Below, piece after piece: positions 144-10,206 of a stretch of 10,907 bases of DNA. Each line of letters starts with the position of its first letter. Positions within the stretch are counted from its first letter, which is position 1. The notes beneath the pieces were generated by a model. The model saw nothing but the letters and a program-made list of their open reading frames with translations. It did not search any database and was not told the DNA's origin. This DNA is from an uncultured Clostridia bacterium. GTDB taxonomy: Bacteria > Bacillota > Clostridia > Christensenellales > Borkfalkiaceae. The DNA lies in assembly GCA_947177825.1 (NCBI GenBank), contig CAMWWA010000029.1, positions 1-10,907 on the forward strand, given 5' to 3'. The position numbers and the translations under genes were made by a program.

Positions 144-173
144 AAAGCCCCGCGGCAACCGCCGCGGGGCTTT
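144..173. terminator. Bidirectional intrinsic terminator between convergent genes
   Basis: A perfect GC-rich inverted repeat pairs 146-156 (AGCCCCGCGGC) with 161-171 around an AACC loop, and can be extended by two A-T pairs to 144-173. On the + strand it is followed by TTTTT at 171-175. On the - strand the transcript continues into TTTCTTTATTT. It lies between the + strand stop at 137 and the - strand stop at 182, so it probably terminates both converging transcripts. Confidence 0.92.
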
Positions 174-181
174 TTCAATAT

Positions 182-913
182 TTATTTTACTTTCTTTTCG
201 GGTAAAAATTTCCAATACCGCACGGGCATATAGCCCTTCATCTGCTTAATATGCGGCCGGCTTGCAATGTTGACCGAATTGTAATATTGCCTCCACAAAT
301 TTTCAAAATACGCCTCGTATTCCGAAAGGTAAATATCGGCGGAATCGGCGTAGGTTATCACGATTTCATTACCGTCAAACAGAGCCGCCCTCTTGCGCTT
401 GACGTCGTGAATAACGAATTTTTTACTCGAAAAGCGCGCGGCAAAGTGCCGCGCAAGAATGTCGGTAATATCGTTGTCGGGAGAGTAGGGGGCGTAAAGC
501 ACGCCGTCGGCATTCTCCATAAACCGCAACAAGCCCTTCAGCCTGTGCACCTCGTAGAAAACGCGCGTGCGTATTTCGGTCATCTCGATTACGACGGGGT
601 TGGCAAGCATTGCGCGCACCGCGCCCTTGTGCGCTACAATGAGCTTTATATATTCGAACGCCACGTTTTCTTTAAGCGCGTGATTGCTCCTTAAAAGCAG
701 GCTTATATCTTCCTCCGCGCCGCCGTCAAGCTCGTTCAGCTTTGCCCGTACGCGCGCGGCTTTCTGCCCGTCCGTCGCAACGTCCTTAACCTCGAAACCC
801 AGTCCGAGCTGAACGCTCCGCTCCGAGGTAATAATGCAGTCCCTGTCGTTGTAGGCTTCGAACACCGCCGTGTAAAAACTTTCTTCCGTGCCGTCCACAA
901 TGTAATACGTCAT
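182..913 (-). CDS. DUF4130 protein, partner of the radical SAM DNA-repair protein (TIGR03915-like)
   Basis: A 243-residue protein of the DUF4130 family (TIGR03915, 'probable DNA metabolism protein'). Recognisable family blocks are EVHRLKGLLRF in the middle, LARHFAARF and FVIHDVKRKRAALFDG after it, and a C-terminal block with LWRQYYNSVNIASRPH and a YMPVRYWKFLPE ending. No signal peptide or membrane segment is apparent, so it should be cytoplasmic. The ATG at 911-913 overlaps the TGA of the upstream radical SAM gene (ATGA), with a GGGTG just before it, so the two are translationally coupled. In many genomes this domain is fused to a uracil-DNA-glycosylase-like domain. Here it stands alone, and the length leaves no room for a glycosylase. 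The family has no established enzymatic activity; a role in DNA modification or repair is inferred from its constant pairing with the radical SAM protein. Confidence 0.88.
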   Translation of the reverse strand: MTYYIVDGTEESFYTAVFEAYNDRDCIITSERSVQLGLGFEVKDVATDGQKAARVRAKLNELDGGAEEDISLLLRSNHALKENVAFEYIKLIVAHKGAVRAMLANPVVIEMTEIRTRVFYEVHRLKGLLRFMENADGVLYAPYSPDNDITDILARHFAARFSSKKFVIHDVKRKRAALFDGNEIVITYADSADIYLSEYEAYFENLWRQYYNSVNIASRPHIKQMKGYMPVRYWKFLPEKKVK

Positions 914-2172
914 ATTTCACCCGTGAGGGCGCTCAACGCAACCGAAGGGGAGGAAAACATACTCAGCTGTTGCTCGTTCTCCCTGATTCCGTCCAGAAGC
1001 AGTGCGGCTTTAACGGCGTTTCCGCTCTCCAAGCCGTAAAATTTGCCCTTACAGGTAATAAAGTGCTTCGCCCTCTTAAGTATTATGCGCATTTTTGCAA
1101 GATTATCAAAGTCCAGCGCACCGAATCTTCTCGCCTGAATAATGCGGTAGGCGCTCTTCGCGCCGATTCCCGGCACGCGCAAAAGCGTTTCCAGCGGCGC
1201 CGTGTTGATTTCCACGGGGAAGAGGTGCATATTGCGCATAGCCCAGGCGCATTTGGGGTCGAAGTCGAGGGGGAGGTTGTCGCCCTCGCCGCATATCTCG
1301 CCGACGTCAAAGCCGTAAAAGCGTATAAGCCAGTCCGCCTGGTAAAGGCGGTGCTCCCTCAAAAGTCCCGCGCCCACCGTAGGCAGTTTGGGGCTTTCCA
1401 CCACGGGAACGTAGGAGGAGTAGTAAACCCTTTTTAGCCCTATCTTTCTGTACAGGGCTTCGGTAAGGCGCAGAATCTGTCCGTCGCTTTCGGGCGAAGC
1501 GCCTATAATCATCTGCGTGGTCTGCCCGGCGGGTATGACCATACCCTTGCCCCTGCGCACCTTGTTTTCTTTGTCGTAAATCTGCGCGGTGCTCAGCTTT
1601 TTCATGGGCAGCAAAAGGCTTTCCTTGGTCTTTTGGGGCGCAAGCAGTTTAAGCGACTTTTCGCTGGGCAGTTCTACGTTAAAACTCATTCTGTCAACGT
1701 ACTTTGCGGCGCGCATAATAATCTCGTCGTCGGCGTGAGGAATGCCCTTTAAGTGTATATATCCGTTAAAATTATACACCTTGCGCAGCTTAACGACCGT
1801 CTCGCACAGCAGCTCCATGGTGCGGTTTGGCGTGTCGAAAACCGCGGAGGAGAGGAACAGCCCCTCGATATAGTTGCGCATATAAAAATTTATGGTGAGA
1901 TTGCAAATCTCGTCGGGAGTAACGCTCGCCCTTCTGACGTCCGCGCTGCGCCTGTTGGGGCAGTATTCGCAGTCGTAAAGGCACTCGTTGCTCATTAAAA
2001 TTTTCAGAAGGGATATACATCTTCCGTCGGGGGTAAAGGAGTGGCATATCCCGCCGACGGAAGAATTCCCGAGCCCGCCCTTCGTGTTCTCCCGTTTAGA
2101 CCCCGAAGAGGAGCAGGAAACGTCGTACTTGGCGCTTTCGGTTAAAATTGTAAGTCTTTCGGCGTCCAACAT
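910..2172 (-). CDS. Putative DNA modification/repair radical SAM protein (TIGR03916-like)
   Basis: A 420-residue radical SAM protein. The CxxxCxxC cluster motif (C64, C68, C71, in ECLYDCEYC) would bind the [4Fe-4S] cluster that cleaves S-adenosylmethionine. Family hallmarks before it are KYDVSCSSSGSKR (C20) and GICHSFTPDGRCISLLKIL (C43, C52); these extra cysteines look family-typical and their role is unknown to me. Near the C-terminus, about residues 322-350, a helix-hairpin-helix (LLRVPGIGAKSAYRII) is the kind of element that binds DNA backbone. The ATG at 2172 is preceded by GAGGT (2182-2186 on the - strand) with nine bases of spacing, which supports this start. It is the first gene of a two-gene operon, overlapping the DUF4130 gene by four bases. 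A sigma-A promoter and an SOS-like operator lie directly upstream. The DNA substrate and reaction are not known for the family; the repair assignment is an inference from the HhH, the partner gene and the predicted SOS control. Confidence 0.9.
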   Translation of the reverse strand: MLDAERLTILTESAKYDVSCSSSGSKRENTKGGLGNSSVGGICHSFTPDGRCISLLKILMSNECLYDCEYCPNRRSADVRRASVTPDEICNLTINFYMRNYIEGLFLSSAVFDTPNRTMELLCETVVKLRKVYNFNGYIHLKGIPHADDEIIMRAAKYVDRMSFNVELPSEKSLKLLAPQKTKESLLLPMKKLSTAQIYDKENKVRRGKGMVIPAGQTTQMIIGASPESDGQILRLTEALYRKIGLKRVYYSSYVPVVESPKLPTVGAGLLREHRLYQADWLIRFYGFDVGEICGEGDNLPLDFDPKCAWAMRNMHLFPVEINTAPLETLLRVPGIGAKSAYRIIQARRFGALDFDNLAKMRIILKRAKHFITCKGKFYGLESGNAVKAALLLDGIRENEQQLSMFSSPSVALSALTGEI

Positions 2173-2181
2173 ACTTCGCTT

Positions 2182-2186
2182 ACCTC
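2182..2186 (-). promoter_or_regulatory. Ribosome binding site of the radical SAM gene
   Basis: GAGGT on the - strand, nine bases before the ATG at 2172. It fixes the start of the radical SAM protein and is one of the few clear Shine-Dalgarno sites in the window. Confidence 0.75.
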
Positions 2187-2222
2187 AACAAATCCGCACG
2201 GAAAACCCGTTCTTTTCCGTAA

Positions 2223-2236
2223 CGAACAAATGTTTG
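2223..2236. promoter_or_regulatory. LexA/SOS-like operator box
   Basis: CGAACAAATGTTTG on the + strand is a near-palindrome that matches the Gram-positive LexA (DinR) consensus CGAACRNRYGTTYC at 13 of 14 positions. Read in the direction of the radical SAM gene, it starts seven bases after the -10 hexamer and so covers the predicted transcription start, an ideal place for repression. A similar sequence occurs in the uvrB leader. The match is direct; LexA binding is inferred, and the lexA gene is not in the window. Confidence 0.8.
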
Positions 2237-2243
2237 TATTGAT

Positions 2244-2272
2244 ATAATATCACTAAAAAACGCGCCTGTCAA
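2244..2272 (-). promoter_or_regulatory. Sigma-A promoter of the radical SAM/DUF4130 operon
   Basis: On the - strand, a perfect -35 TTGACA (2272-2267) is separated by exactly 17 bases from -10 TATTAT (2249-2244). The start is predicted near 2237, inside the SOS-like box, leaving a leader of about 65 bases before the ATG at 2172. Confidence 0.85.
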
Positions 2273-2326
2273 CCGCTTTTTCGGAAATTTTATTAAAAGT
2301 TTCACTCATTTTTCATAATCCGCCCA

Positions 2327-2355
2327 TTGTCGTTTGCCTCTAAGCGGTTTATAAT
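2327..2355 (+). promoter_or_regulatory. Promoter of the two-component operon
   Basis: -35 TTGTCG (2327-2332, 4 of 6 consensus) is followed after 17 bases by a perfect -10 TATAAT (2350-2355). A second TATAAT follows directly at 2356-2361. The predicted start near 2362 gives a short leader of about 28 bases. Confidence 0.7.
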
Positions 2356-2375
2356 TATAATAAGGATAAGAAAAC

Positions 2376-2380
2376 GGGAG
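2376..2380 (+). promoter_or_regulatory. Ribosome binding site of the response regulator
   Basis: GGGAG, nine bases before the ATG at 2390. It decides between this start and the upstream in-frame TTG. Confidence 0.75.
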
Positions 2381-2389
2381 CCGGAAATT

Positions 2390-3055
2390 ATGAAAGTTCT
2401 GATTGTCGACGACGAGGATATGATTCGCAACGTGCTTAAGGAGTACGTTGAGTTCGAGGGTAACGAGGCGTACGAAGCCGCCGACGGAATGGAGGCGGTG
2501 CGCATGTGCAGGGAGGGCGATTTCGACGTCATTTTAATGGACGTTATGATGCCCCGCCTGGACGGCTTTTCCGCCGTCAAGGAAATAAAAAAATTCAAGG
2601 ACATTCCCGTCATAATGCTCTCCGCGCGCGGCGAGGAGTACGACAAGCTTTTCGGCTTCGAGATAGGCGTGGACGACTACGTGACAAAGCCTTTCTCGCC
2701 CAAGGAGGTCATGGCGAGAATAAACGTCGTAACCAAGCGCAGAAAGCAGAAGGAAGAGACGGGCGATATCGTCACGTTCGAGGGGCTGACCGTAGATTTC
2801 GCGGGGCGCAACGTATTCGTTGACGGCGACAAAGTCGACTTAACGCCCAAGGAATACGAAATTTTGTTTTACTTTATAAAGAACAAGGGCATTGCTTTGA
2901 CGCGCGAAAAGCTTTTGTACGACGTGTGGGGCTTCGATTTCTACGGCGACGACCGCACGGTGGATACGCACATAAAGATGCTGCGCGCAAATTTAAAGCA
3001 GTACCGCAAATTCATAGTTACTTTAAGAGGTGTCGGATATAAGTTCGAAGTCTGA
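2390..3055 (+). CDS. OmpR/PhoB-family response regulator
   Basis: A 221-residue DNA-binding response regulator. The N-terminal receiver domain (about 1-120) has the acidic pocket D7-D8, phospho-acceptor D51 in LMDVMMPRLDG, S78 in the switch position and K100 in the VTKPF motif. The C-terminal winged helix (about 128-221) shows the OmpR-type pattern LTPKEYEILFYF, a VDTHIKMLR recognition helix and the RGVGYKFEV end. The ATG at 2390 is chosen because the protein then begins MKVLIVDDE as the family does, and GGGAG at 2376-2380 lies nine bases upstream. A longer reading from TTG at 2327 would begin inside the promoter. The histidine kinase gene follows with a 26-base overlap. Target genes cannot be read from the sequence; it may regulate its own promoter. 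Confidence 0.95.
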   Translation: MKVLIVDDEDMIRNVLKEYVEFEGNEAYEAADGMEAVRMCREGDFDVILMDVMMPRLDGFSAVKEIKKFKDIPVIMLSARGEEYDKLFGFEIGVDDYVTKPFSPKEVMARINVVTKRRKQKEETGDIVTFEGLTVDFAGRNVFVDGDKVDLTPKEYEILFYFIKNKGIALTREKLLYDVWGFDFYGDDRTVDTHIKMLRANLKQYRKFIVTLRGVGYKFEV

Positions 3056-5394: not shown

Positions 5395-5408
5395 AAAACT
5401 TTTGTTCA
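5395..5408. promoter_or_regulatory. Candidate LexA/SOS-like box upstream of uvrB
   Basis: AAAACTTTTGTTCA keeps the AAC-N4-GTT core of the Gram-positive SOS box with one intact GTTC half and a degenerate other half. Read toward its gene it is identical at 11 of 14 positions to the box of the radical SAM operon (CAAACATTTGTTCG). It lies 14 bases after the -10 element, in the leader. UvrB is a classic SOS gene in Bacillus, which supports the call, but the half-site is weak and the region is A/T-rich. Confidence 0.5.
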
Positions 5409-5418
5409 CTTTCCGAAA

Positions 5419-7386
<1,968 letters not shown>

Positions 7387-7392
7387 ATAGAT

Positions 7393-10206
7393 ATGAAAGA
7401 AGAAATTTTTGTCAAAGGTGCAAAGGAAAACAATTTAAAAAATATCGACGTTCACATTCCGCGCAACAAGCTCACGGTTTTTACGGGGCTTTCGGGCAGC
7501 GGTAAATCGACGCTCGCTTTCGACACCATCTTTGCCGAGGGGCAGAGGCGGTATATCGAAAGCCTTTCGTCGTACGCGCGGCAGTTCCTCGGTCAGATGG
7601 AAAAGCCCGACGTCGAGCTTATCGACGGGCTTTCCCCCGCAATTTCAATCGACCAGAAAACGACGTCGCACAACCCGCGTTCGACGGTCGGCACGGTCAC
7701 GGAAATTTACGACTATTTCCGTCTGCTGTTCGCGCGCGTGGGCGTTCCACACTGTCCCGAGTGCGGCAGGGAGATAAGGCGGCAGTCGGTGGACGAAATC
7801 GCCGATAAGGTTATGCTTATGCCCGCCGGCAGCAAGATTATGGTCGAAGCCCCCGTCGTCCGCGGCAAAAAGGGCGAGTTCGTAAAGGAGCTTGCCTCCT
7901 ACAAAAAGAGCGGTTACGGCAGGGTAAAGATTGACGGCTCTGTCTACGACCTGCAGGAGGATATCCGCCTTGAAAAGAATATCCGCCACAATATCTCGGT
8001 AATAGTAGACAGGCTGGTAGTCAAGGAGGGCGTTTTAAAGCGCCTTACGGACAGCCTGGAAAGCGCGCTCAAGCTCGCCGACGGACTCGTTATCATCGAC
8101 TGTGAAGGCAAGGAGGATTTGTATTCCACCAAGTACGCCTGCCCCGACTGCGGTATATCCTTGGAAGAAATCGAACCCAGACTATTCTCGTTCAACACCC
8201 CGTGGGGCGCGTGCCCCGAGTGTTCGGGACTGGGCTTCAAGCAGATAATCGACCCCGACCTCATATGCCCCGACAAGAGCAAGTCTTTGCGCGACGGCGC
8301 CATTAAAATTAGCGGCTGGAATCTGGACAGCTCGGCAATGACTCAGATGTATCTAACTTCGCTTTCCAAGGTCTACGGCTTCTCGCTGGACGTTCCCGTA
8401 AGCGAGTTGCCCGACGGCGTATACGATATGCTCATGTACGGCAACGGCGGCGAAAAGATTGATTTGCAGTACAACGCTCACCGCTTTTCGGGCAGCTACA
8501 AGACCGCGTGGGAAGGCTTTGCCGCCAACCTGCAGCGCCGCTACAACCAGACAAGTTCGGATAGCGTTAAGTGGGATATAGAGCGGTATATGCGCACGTC
8601 GGACTGTCCCTGCTGTCACGGCAAACGCCTTAAAAAGGAGGCGCTTGCGGTCACAGTCGGCGGCAGAAACATAGCCGAAATATGCGATATGTCGGTGGAG
8701 GATTTAAGGGCGTTTTCCGACTTTTCATTCTTCTCGCCCACCGAGCATATGATAGCCGACAATATCATAAAGGAAATCAACAACCGCATATCGTTTCTGG
8801 AAAACGTGGGGCTGGGCTATTTAACGCTTTCGCGTTCGGCGGCAACCCTTTCGGGCGGCGAGAGCCAGCGTATACGCCTTGCAACGCAGATAGGCAGCGC
8901 GCTTACGGGCGTTTTATATATTCTGGACGAGCCGTCCATAGGTCTGCACCAGCGCGACAACCAGAAGCTTTTGAATTCGTTAAAGGGCTTGCGCGATTTG
9001 GGCAACACGCTCATAGTGGTGGAGCACGACGAGGACACCATTAAGGCGGCGGACTATATCGTGGACATAGGTCCAAAGGCTGGCGTGCACGGCGGCGAGG
9101 TGGTCGCGTGCGGCACGCAGGAGGACATTATGGCGCAGCCGCTGTCCATTACGGGCGACTTCCTTGCAGGGCGCAGGAGCATAAAGGTACCCGAAAGGCG
9201 CGCGGAAAGCGACGGCAGATTTTTCAAGGTTTGCGGTTGCCGCCAGAACAATTTGAAGGGCATAGACGTGCAGTTCCCCGTCGGGCTTATAACCTCGGTT
9301 ACGGGCGTTTCGGGAAGCGGCAAGTCCAGCCTTGTCAACGAAATTTTATATCCCTATCTCGCCAACAAATTAAACGGTGCGCGCAAAAAGCTCGGCAATG
9401 CGGAAGGGTACGAAGGCATCGAATATTTCGATAAAGTCATCGCCATCGACCAGCAGCCGATTGGCAGAACGCCGCGCAGCAACCCCGCAACGTATACGGG
9501 CGTATTCACTCTGATACGCGACCTTTTCGCCGCCACGCCCGACGCCAAGGAGAGGGGATACAAGAGCGGCAGATTTTCGTTCAACGTCGCGGGCGGCAGG
9601 TGCGAGCACTGTCAGGGCGACGGCATTTTGCAGATAGCAATGCACTTCCTGCCCGACATCTTCGTTCCGTGCGAGGTGTGCGGCGGCAAGCGCTACAACA
9701 GGGAAACGCTGGAGGTCAAGTACAAGGGCAAATCCATTTCGGACGTGCTGGATATGACCATAGACGAGGCGGCGGAATTTTTCGCGCCCGTCACTGCAAT
9801 ATACAACAAGTTAAAGACGCTGGTGGACGTTGGCTTGGGCTATATCAAGCTCGGGCAGAGCGCGACCACGCTTTCGGGCGGTGAGGCGCAGAGAGTAAAG
9901 CTTGCAACCGAGCTAAGTAAGCGCGGCACGGGCAAGACGGTATATATCCTCGACGAGCCGACGACGGGACTGCATACCTACGACGTAGAAAAGCTGGTCA
10001 ATATCCTTGCGCGGCTGCGCGACGGCGGCAACACGGTGGTGGTAATCGAGCACAACCTGGACGTCATAAAGACCTCCGACTGGATTATAGATTTGGGACC
10101 GGAAGGGGGCGACAGGGGCGGCACGCTTATTGCCTGCGGCACGCCCGAGCAGGTTGCCGAGTGTGAAAACAGTTATACGGGACAGTTCTTAAAAGATATT
10201 TTGTAA
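7393..10206 (+). CDS. uvrA: Excinuclease ABC subunit A
   Basis: A 937-residue UvrA, the damage-sensing ABC ATPase of nucleotide excision repair. Both nucleotide-binding modules are complete: Walker A1 GLSGSGKS (32-39), signature LSGGE (486-490) and Walker B D512-E513; Walker A2 GVSGSGKS (638-645), signature LSGGE (827-831) and Walker B starting at D854. Two four-cysteine zinc modules are visible at C250/C253/C274/C277 and C737/C740/C760/C763. Another CPEC pair near residue 120 and a CPCC near the middle are also present. The ATG lies six bases after the uvrB stop with no ribosome binding site, so it is probably translated by coupling within a uvrBA operon. The length and motifs indicate an intact housekeeping UvrA, not a resistance-type UvrA2 paralogue. 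Confidence 0.98.
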   Translation: MKEEIFVKGAKENNLKNIDVHIPRNKLTVFTGLSGSGKSTLAFDTIFAEGQRRYIESLSSYARQFLGQMEKPDVELIDGLSPAISIDQKTTSHNPRSTVGTVTEIYDYFRLLFARVGVPHCPECGREIRRQSVDEIADKVMLMPAGSKIMVEAPVVRGKKGEFVKELASYKKSGYGRVKIDGSVYDLQEDIRLEKNIRHNISVIVDRLVVKEGVLKRLTDSLESALKLADGLVIIDCEGKEDLYSTKYACPDCGISLEEIEPRLFSFNTPWGACPECSGLGFKQIIDPDLICPDKSKSLRDGAIKISGWNLDSSAMTQMYLTSLSKVYGFSLDVPVSELPDGVYDMLMYGNGGEKIDLQYNAHRFSGSYKTAWEGFAANLQRRYNQTSSDSVKWDIERYMRTSDCPCCHGKRLKKEALAVTVGGRNIAEICDMSVEDLRAFSDFSFFSPTEHMIADNIIKEINNRISFLENVGLGYLTLSRSAATLSGGESQRIRLATQIGSALTGVLYILDEPSIGLHQRDNQKLLNSLKGLRDLGNTLIVVEHDEDTIKAADYIVDIGPKAGVHGGEVVACGTQEDIMAQPLSITGDFLAGRRSIKVPERRAESDGRFFKVCGCRQNNLKGIDVQFPVGLITSVTGVSGSGKSSLVNEILYPYLANKLNGARKKLGNAEGYEGIEYFDKVIAIDQQPIGRTPRSNPATYTGVFTLIRDLFAATPDAKERGYKSGRFSFNVAGGRCEHCQGDGILQIAMHFLPDIFVPCEVCGGKRYNRETLEVKYKGKSISDVLDMTIDEAAEFFAPVTAIYNKLKTLVDVGLGYIKLGQSATTLSGGEAQRVKLATELSKRGTGKTVYILDEPTTGLHTYDVEKLVNILARLRDGGNTVVVIEHNLDVIKTSDWIIDLGPEGGDRGGTLIACGTPEQVAECENSYTGQFLKDIL

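Follow-up and report, generated by a model that had tools for sequence, protein, structure and literature searches.

The window, i.e., the whole analysed stretch of 10,907 nucleotides, is contig C29 of a gut-bacterial assembly of 1.34 Mb in 210 contigs, which is 82.6% complete. It carries on its minus strand a two-gene operon, consisting of the gene for a radical SAM protein of family TIGR03916 (positions 910..2172, 420 aa; 579 bits against a curated cut-off of 343.5) and that for a TIGR03915/DUF4130 protein (182..913, 243 aa; 183 bits against a cut-off of 112, and 138.5 bits for PF13566), which overlap by 4 nt and are followed by an intrinsic-terminator-like hairpin detected by a terminator scan on the same strand (144..173). 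The TIGR03916 protein contains a CX3CX2C motif at residues 64-71, whose cysteines C64, C68, and C71 are invariant in the seven sequences compared, and a helix-hairpin-helix (HhH) at about residues 320-350 (PF12836, 28.2 bits; cut-off 27); its score of 29.3 bits with the PF04055 Radical_SAM model lies just under the cut-off of 29.5. No uracil-DNA glycosylase domain was detected in the TIGR03915 partner, for which Pfam returned only DUF4130 and NCBIfam only TIGR03915, and no sequence match to either protein was obtained among solved structures. A possible likeness of the DUF4130 model (182-913) to DHH-type proteins (PAP phosphatase, RecJ, Cdc45) was seen over residues 1-203. Among the matches listed, the closest relatives with a genus name belong to Candidatus Coproplasma (74-80% identity of the TIGR03916 proteins), one near locus (77%) is labelled as an uncultured Christensenella sp., and Candidatus Borkfalkia, Scatosoma, and Gallimonas are more distant named relatives; in a sample of the phylum, 47 of 199 genomes (own included) contain TIGR03916 above the cut-off. 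The divergent plus strand encodes an OmpR-type response regulator (2390), followed by a histidine kinase, a ThiF/TcdA-like protein, uvrB (5419..7386; TIGR00631, 1017 bits), and uvrA (7393..10206; TIGR00630, 1415 bits).

As stated in the original prediction, the operon is preceded by a near-consensus sigma-70-type promoter on the minus strand (2244..2272), in which TTGACA starts at 2272 and is separated by a 17-nt spacer from a TATTAT ending at 2244. It matches the consensus at 11 of 12 positions, has a TG in front of the -10, and shares the best score with one other among the 15 promoter-like sites of the window. The palindrome said to sit on its predicted start was also recovered: the candidate LexA operator CGAACAAATGTTTG (2223..2236, no strand assigned) contains a 12-nt core, GAACAAATGTTT, at 2224-2235, and because the first base of this core lies 8 nt past the -10, the operator would span about +1 to +14 of the transcript. 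The core conforms to the RAAC-N4-GTTY dyad of Gram-positive-type LexA operators; the LexA dyad of B. subtilis is GAAC-N4-GTTC. A match to the LexA consensus at 13 of 14 positions had been claimed, which is overstated: CGAACAAATGTTTG agrees with CGAAC-N4-GTTCG at 9 of the 10 defined positions, and its dyad is symmetric in 5 of 7 pairs. The motif by itself is weak evidence, since its counts in the window are chance-like and no enrichment is seen genome-wide: CGAACNNNNGTTYG with one mismatch allowed occurs four times in the window against 2.2 expected, a number reached in 48 of 200 shuffles; RAACAWAYGTTY matches the 1.34-Mb assembly 3 times against 11 for the reversed control pattern, a further assembly-wide count gave 6 against 32 for the reversed pattern, and over ten genomes 192 matches were counted against 270. 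It is the position of the box and its conservation in relatives that make it more than chance.

No match to LexA_DNA_bind or Peptidase_S24 was found in the source assembly at its 82.6% completeness. Because it shows no lexA, a LexA matrix was derived from the lexA promoters of genus mates, 27 of 28 of which have a LexA_DNA_bind match. These promoters were read for 23 of the 27 LexA-positive mates, and all 23 contain the genus lexA consensus RAACNNNYGTTTG at about 90 nt or less from the first possible start codon; the sites were chosen by the pattern RAACNNNYGTTY, after TIGR03916 promoters and three lexA promoters had been inspected. The matrix was built from these 23 sites only and holds no TIGR03916 site. 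Scanned over the window, it ranks the box at 2223-2236 first with 15.3 bits, which is less than the lowest leave-one-out score of a lexA site (17.6 bits), followed by a runner-up of 9.5 bits. Across the genus, the best match per locus falls at the TIGR03916 promoter in 30 of 30 loci, these being the top-scoring 30 among 55 TIGR03916-containing genomes, own included. A direct sequence comparison also showed that the 13-mer GAACAAATGTTTG recurs without change in the C. difficile operators of lexA and recA presented in PMC4234289, where promoter fragments of both genes bound LexA in SPR. The genus consensus shares the RAAC-N4-GTTY dyad and departs from CGAAC-N4-GTTCG.

Other candidate LexA targets were found in the window and beyond. 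The second-best match of the window, AAACTTTTGTTC (5396..5407, no strand assigned), lies directly before uvrB and may be a weaker LexA box. Among the uvrB upstreams of 30 of the 61 genus genomes, a set without our own, 17 contain the strict core, nine a one-mismatch form, and three none, while one was too short; the boxes recur across the genus, with varying spacing to uvrB. The motif also precedes genes for a Y-family polymerase in two loci, one confirmed by Pfam (L179) and one judged by like sequence (L188). A 14-mer identical to CGAACAAATGTTTG is present at L023:1501-1514, on contig C65 of our own assembly, before a small gene (1542-1943) whose product of about 130 aa belongs to no Pfam or NCBIfam family. 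A like small gene, with the likeness judged by eye, stands behind a like box in seven of seven relatives whose sites were followed, which makes it a candidate for a new SOS gene. The core is absent from all 30 genus recA upstreams (shuffle mean, 0.74), taken from 30 of 55 genus genomes with a RecA match, own included, as 320-nt stretches that include 20 nt of recA itself, three of them being shorter (230, 211, and, for our own, 102 nt). Our own recA (L084, contig C171) shows a matrix match of 14.1 bits, ATACAAAAGGTT, shortly before the start and without the dyad core, and three other recA upstreams without the core reach 13.5, 11.0, and 8.4 bits; on account of these matches, weak LexA control of recA may exist. 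Stretches similar to ATACAAAAGGTT were also seen in some relatives. On contig C43 of the same assembly, AAACAAATGTTT (L087:1501-1512) stands immediately ahead of the -35 in a strong promoter-like site; no same-strand ORF of at least 60 aa follows this site directly, and Rfam gave no match. A scan with RAACNNNYGTTTG, in which sites were listed for seven of nine relatives and mainly AT-centred sites were followed, led to 36 examined regions, eight of which are without a matrix match of at least 13 bits. Several matches lie inside genes or before no gene, and others precede helicase, CoiA-like, and DUF6883 genes, which are not claimed as targets.

The arrangement of box and promoter is nearly constant within the genus: the spacing from the -10 to the box is 8 nt in 26 of the 30 loci and never leaves the range of 5-9 nt, while the distances between box and ATG range from 26 to 183 nt. 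In three of these loci, another box is located 45-47 nt upstream. As the box is located between two divergent genes, it might instead serve the OmpR-type response regulator at 2390, and the start of such a regulator is indeed found at most 900 nt upstream in 26 of 28 testable genus loci. In the two others (L032, L047), however, the box is present although no such regulator was seen nearby, and it is the -10 of the TIGR03916 promoter to which the 8-nt spacing is held, and its -35 which is overlapped in sister genera, whereas the closest promoter-like site of the regulator (2327-2355) is about 90 nt away from the box. We therefore consider an operator for the regulator rather than the TIGR03916 operon to be very improbable.

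Conservation extends to the family, where the core RAACNNNNGTTY was found upstream of TIGR03916 in 76 of 79 loci, whereas shuffled sequences averaged 3.4 and never exceeded 8. These loci are the best 80 of 580, minus one dropped for having no upstream sequence, and contain at least 100 nt upstream. A slightly narrower form of the core occurred in 42 of 1387 control windows; the shuffles, which preserve dinucleotides, replaced control windows (0/1380) that overlapped heavily and were judged unreliable. The LexA matrix has its best match of the whole locus at the TIGR03916 promoter in 70 of the 79 family loci. The genus and family counts are not independent, because the loci L205-L234 and those of the genus share some genomes. 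In the phylum sample, RAACNNNNGTTY occurs within about 280 nt upstream of TIGR03916 in 34 of the 46 genomes other than our own (shuffle mean, 0.97; maximum, 5) and is absent from this range in the other 12; searching the core-less upstreams for an alternative shared motif turned up at most some 9-mers that were AT-rich, resembled a -10, or came from the start region, along with a few unremarkable words, and in places nothing at all. The box is thus conserved at all three levels, including 30 of 30 genus loci with our own among them. The loose motif counts in the window and the unenriched genome-wide counts would agree with a chance palindrome beside a promoter, but the frequencies in family and phylum far from their shuffle means, together with the fixed place of the box in the genus, leave this reading with a negligible probability.

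The position of the box relative to the promoter differs between near and distant relatives. Among the distant family loci with the core (n = 47, from sister genera, 62-70% protein identity), the box overlaps the -35 in 44 (GAACAAATGTTTGAC...), is found 4-10 nt past the -10 in five, and fits neither layout in one, whereas in the nearer family loci with the core it follows the -10 in 29 of 29, and lies additionally on the -35 in five. The operator was therefore retained although its location with respect to the promoter changed, and as judged from these sequences, this shift perhaps passed through an ancestor with two boxes. Two LexA-type boxes spaced 41-48 nt apart were observed at the TIGR03916 promoters of L213, L214, L216, L252, L260, L276, L280, and L284, which possibly represent the ancestral layout; other loci have two boxes at different distances.

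The presence of the box at TIGR03916 also coincides with that at lexA: both genes carry it in 32 genomes of the phylum sample, only lexA in four, only TIGR03916 in one, and neither in three, the remainder consisting of two genomes without a LexA match and without the box and four in which lexA was unread (Fisher p = 8e-4 for 42 genomes, uncorrected for relatedness). The two TIGR03916-containing genomes without a LexA_DNA_bind match are G286 (L302) and G398 (L312), and the box is likewise absent there. These data bear on whether the box may belong to another repressor that shares the RAAC-GTTY half-sites, with LexA being uninvolved. Such a repressor would be in line with the lack of a LexA match in our own assembly, the departure of the genus consensus from CGAAC-N4-GTTCG, and the core-less recA, but it would have to account for the motif in every genus lexA promoter that was read, the identical 13-mer in the LexA-bound promoters of C. 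difficile covered by PMC4234289, the boxes before uvrB and the Y-family polymerase, and the joint occurrence with the lexA box across the phylum. It is accordingly regarded as unlikely, if somewhat less so than the two preceding alternatives. A chance match, an operator of the divergent regulator, and an unrelated repressor were thus all rejected on the evidence from conservation, spacing, and lexA promoters.

We are therefore highly confident, as far as sequence comparison can tell, that the box at 2223-2236 represents a LexA operator at the predicted start site of the TIGR03916-TIGR03915 transcript; the operon would be repressed until DNA damage occurs. The SOS control proposed in the original prediction is supported by the matrix derived from lexA and by conservation at the promoters, and LexA control of the gene pair appears very likely. 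In the mechanism that we infer, a LexA dimer bound at about +1 to +14 from the predicted start site would block the start or the promoter clearance of RNA polymerase in the undamaged cell. DNA damage would then induce the operon by RecA-stimulated self-cleavage of LexA, which would free the near-consensus promoter and allow the radical-SAM/HhH protein and its DUF4130 partner to be made, whose enzymatic job would probably be DNA repair or base modification.

Downstream of the start, the 5' leader is predicted to fold into a hairpin (2192..2227, minus strand) whose stem has 14 pairs and a single bulge and whose loop region contains CGGGU. Its base extends into the operator, and its inner part (2197-2221) was flagged by the terminator scan as well. 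Among the genus leaders of at least 60 nt, CGGGT is present in 20 of 21 and CGTGT in one. The motif follows the box start by 25-29 nt in 20 leaders and by 36 nt in one, and neither version occurs in the nine short leaders of 26-41 nt. A second collection of 29 near loci gave the same picture, with the motif in 20 of 21 long leaders (all but L207) and in none of eight short ones. In distant loci, CGGGT is no feature of the leader, as only L277 contains it, and there within the promoter spacer. In the ViennaRNA folds, 19 of the 21 genus leaders have the motif within a closed loop; the mean z is -2.1 against mononucleotide shuffles, with a z of +1.7 for the leader of L055. RNAalifold applied to the leader alignment detected no hairpin, its four base pairs falling within the operator; since the stems are out of register, the arms were permuted instead of aligned. 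With the 12-nt operator excluded, the true arm pairs of all 31 distinct motif leaders (of 41) reach a mean of -11.39 kcal/mol, compared to -7.44 kcal/mol (sd 0.36) for permuted pairs, and none of 2000 permutations attains the true value. A first set of 26 leaders, which omitted L036, L052, L055, and several near loci, all restored in the set of 31, had given -10.97 against -6.85 kcal/mol, again with 0 of 2000. As the true arm pairs beat all permutations, the stems covary in most leaders with the loop being retained, the exceptions being L032, L043, and L055, whose own arm folds no better than more than half of the other arms. The conservation of the loop is partly built into the choice of the leader set, while the covariation is not.

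CGGGT is missing at that place from ten leaders belonging to other LexA-type targets, namely the small gene and the polymerase, and CGGGA stands at a similar position in the leader of the small gene from our own assembly. Elsewhere, a loose form of the hairpin was matched 41 times in 633 kb on both strands, with at least two of these matches being TIGR03916 leaders. Rfam gave no matches at the gathering threshold in the window, L087, and L023, and none at E values up to 1 in window positions 2100-2420 and L087 1150-1560. In L029, L033, L039, L041, and L046, an apparent second leader hairpin with CTCCTTT in the loop, noticed by eye, follows the CGGGU hairpin and precedes the start codon. The arguments are about evenly balanced for a control in two layers, in which LexA would act at the start and the previously undescribed CGGGU hairpin of long leaders, nearly constant in its distance from the start, would be read by a protein or small RNA, setting for the repair enzymes their translation or stability once SOS is induced.

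Although widespread, the TIGR03916-TIGR03915 gene pair is little studied, and its family names go no further than a putative role in DNA repair or modification. An operator of the LexA type that is kept across genus, family, and phylum despite promoter change adds regulatory evidence for a DNA-damage role that is independent of domain names, and indicates the condition for a first phenotype or substrate test of the gene pair. For a lineage represented here mainly by metagenome assemblies, it also provides an outline of the LexA regulon. In our literature search, neither the names TIGR03916 and TIGR03915 nor any text joining the SOS response and Borkfalkiaceae were found, DUF4130 was named in one paper, and the terms "Radical SAM" and "DUF4130" are absent from the main text of the report on the C. 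difficile LexA regulon (PMC4234289). What appears to be new, as not found in print, is the lineage and the breadth within the phylum, the partner consisting of DUF4130 alone, the moved operator, and the covarying CGGGU leader hairpin, which was compared with Rfam only.

TIGR03916 is presumably covered by COG4277. The repair role of the pair had been thought to be assigned by domain logic only, which does not hold, because SOS control of the related COG1573-COG4277 operon has already been published: according to the pertinent passages of PMC8565304, LexA control with two motifs is predicted for this base-excision-repair operon in Bacteroidetes, and its SOS control is cited for Verrucomicrobia and Alphaproteobacteria as well. 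The principle is therefore known from the Bacteroidetes operon, which resembles the one described here in consisting of two genes, in its inferred LexA control, and, if our assignment is correct, in encoding a COG4277 protein. As far as these passages tell, the two systems differ in the partner, which is a uracil-DNA glycosylase (COG1573) in Bacteroidetes and TIGR03915/DUF4130 alone here, and in the LexA motifs, which are GGA-N5-TCC and CTAA-N5-TTAG there, compared to RAAC-N4-GTTY here. The C. difficile LexA regulon, in the parts of PMC4234289 considered, is similar in its 13-mer GAACAAATGTTTG and in uvrBA, a target there and a likely one here, but differs in recA, which is a LexA target in C. 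difficile, whereas the core is found in none of the 30 recA upstreams of the genus. Finally, the core SOS regulon of Gram-positive bacteria, as outlined in passages of PMC8565304 and PMC7739468, includes splB and an unnamed "radical SAM protein," which the passages of PMC7739468 leave unspecified. The operon studied here would resemble them as a further case of a radical SAM DNA-repair gene under LexA, and is set apart from splB by the HhH domain of TIGR03916 and its DUF4130 partner.
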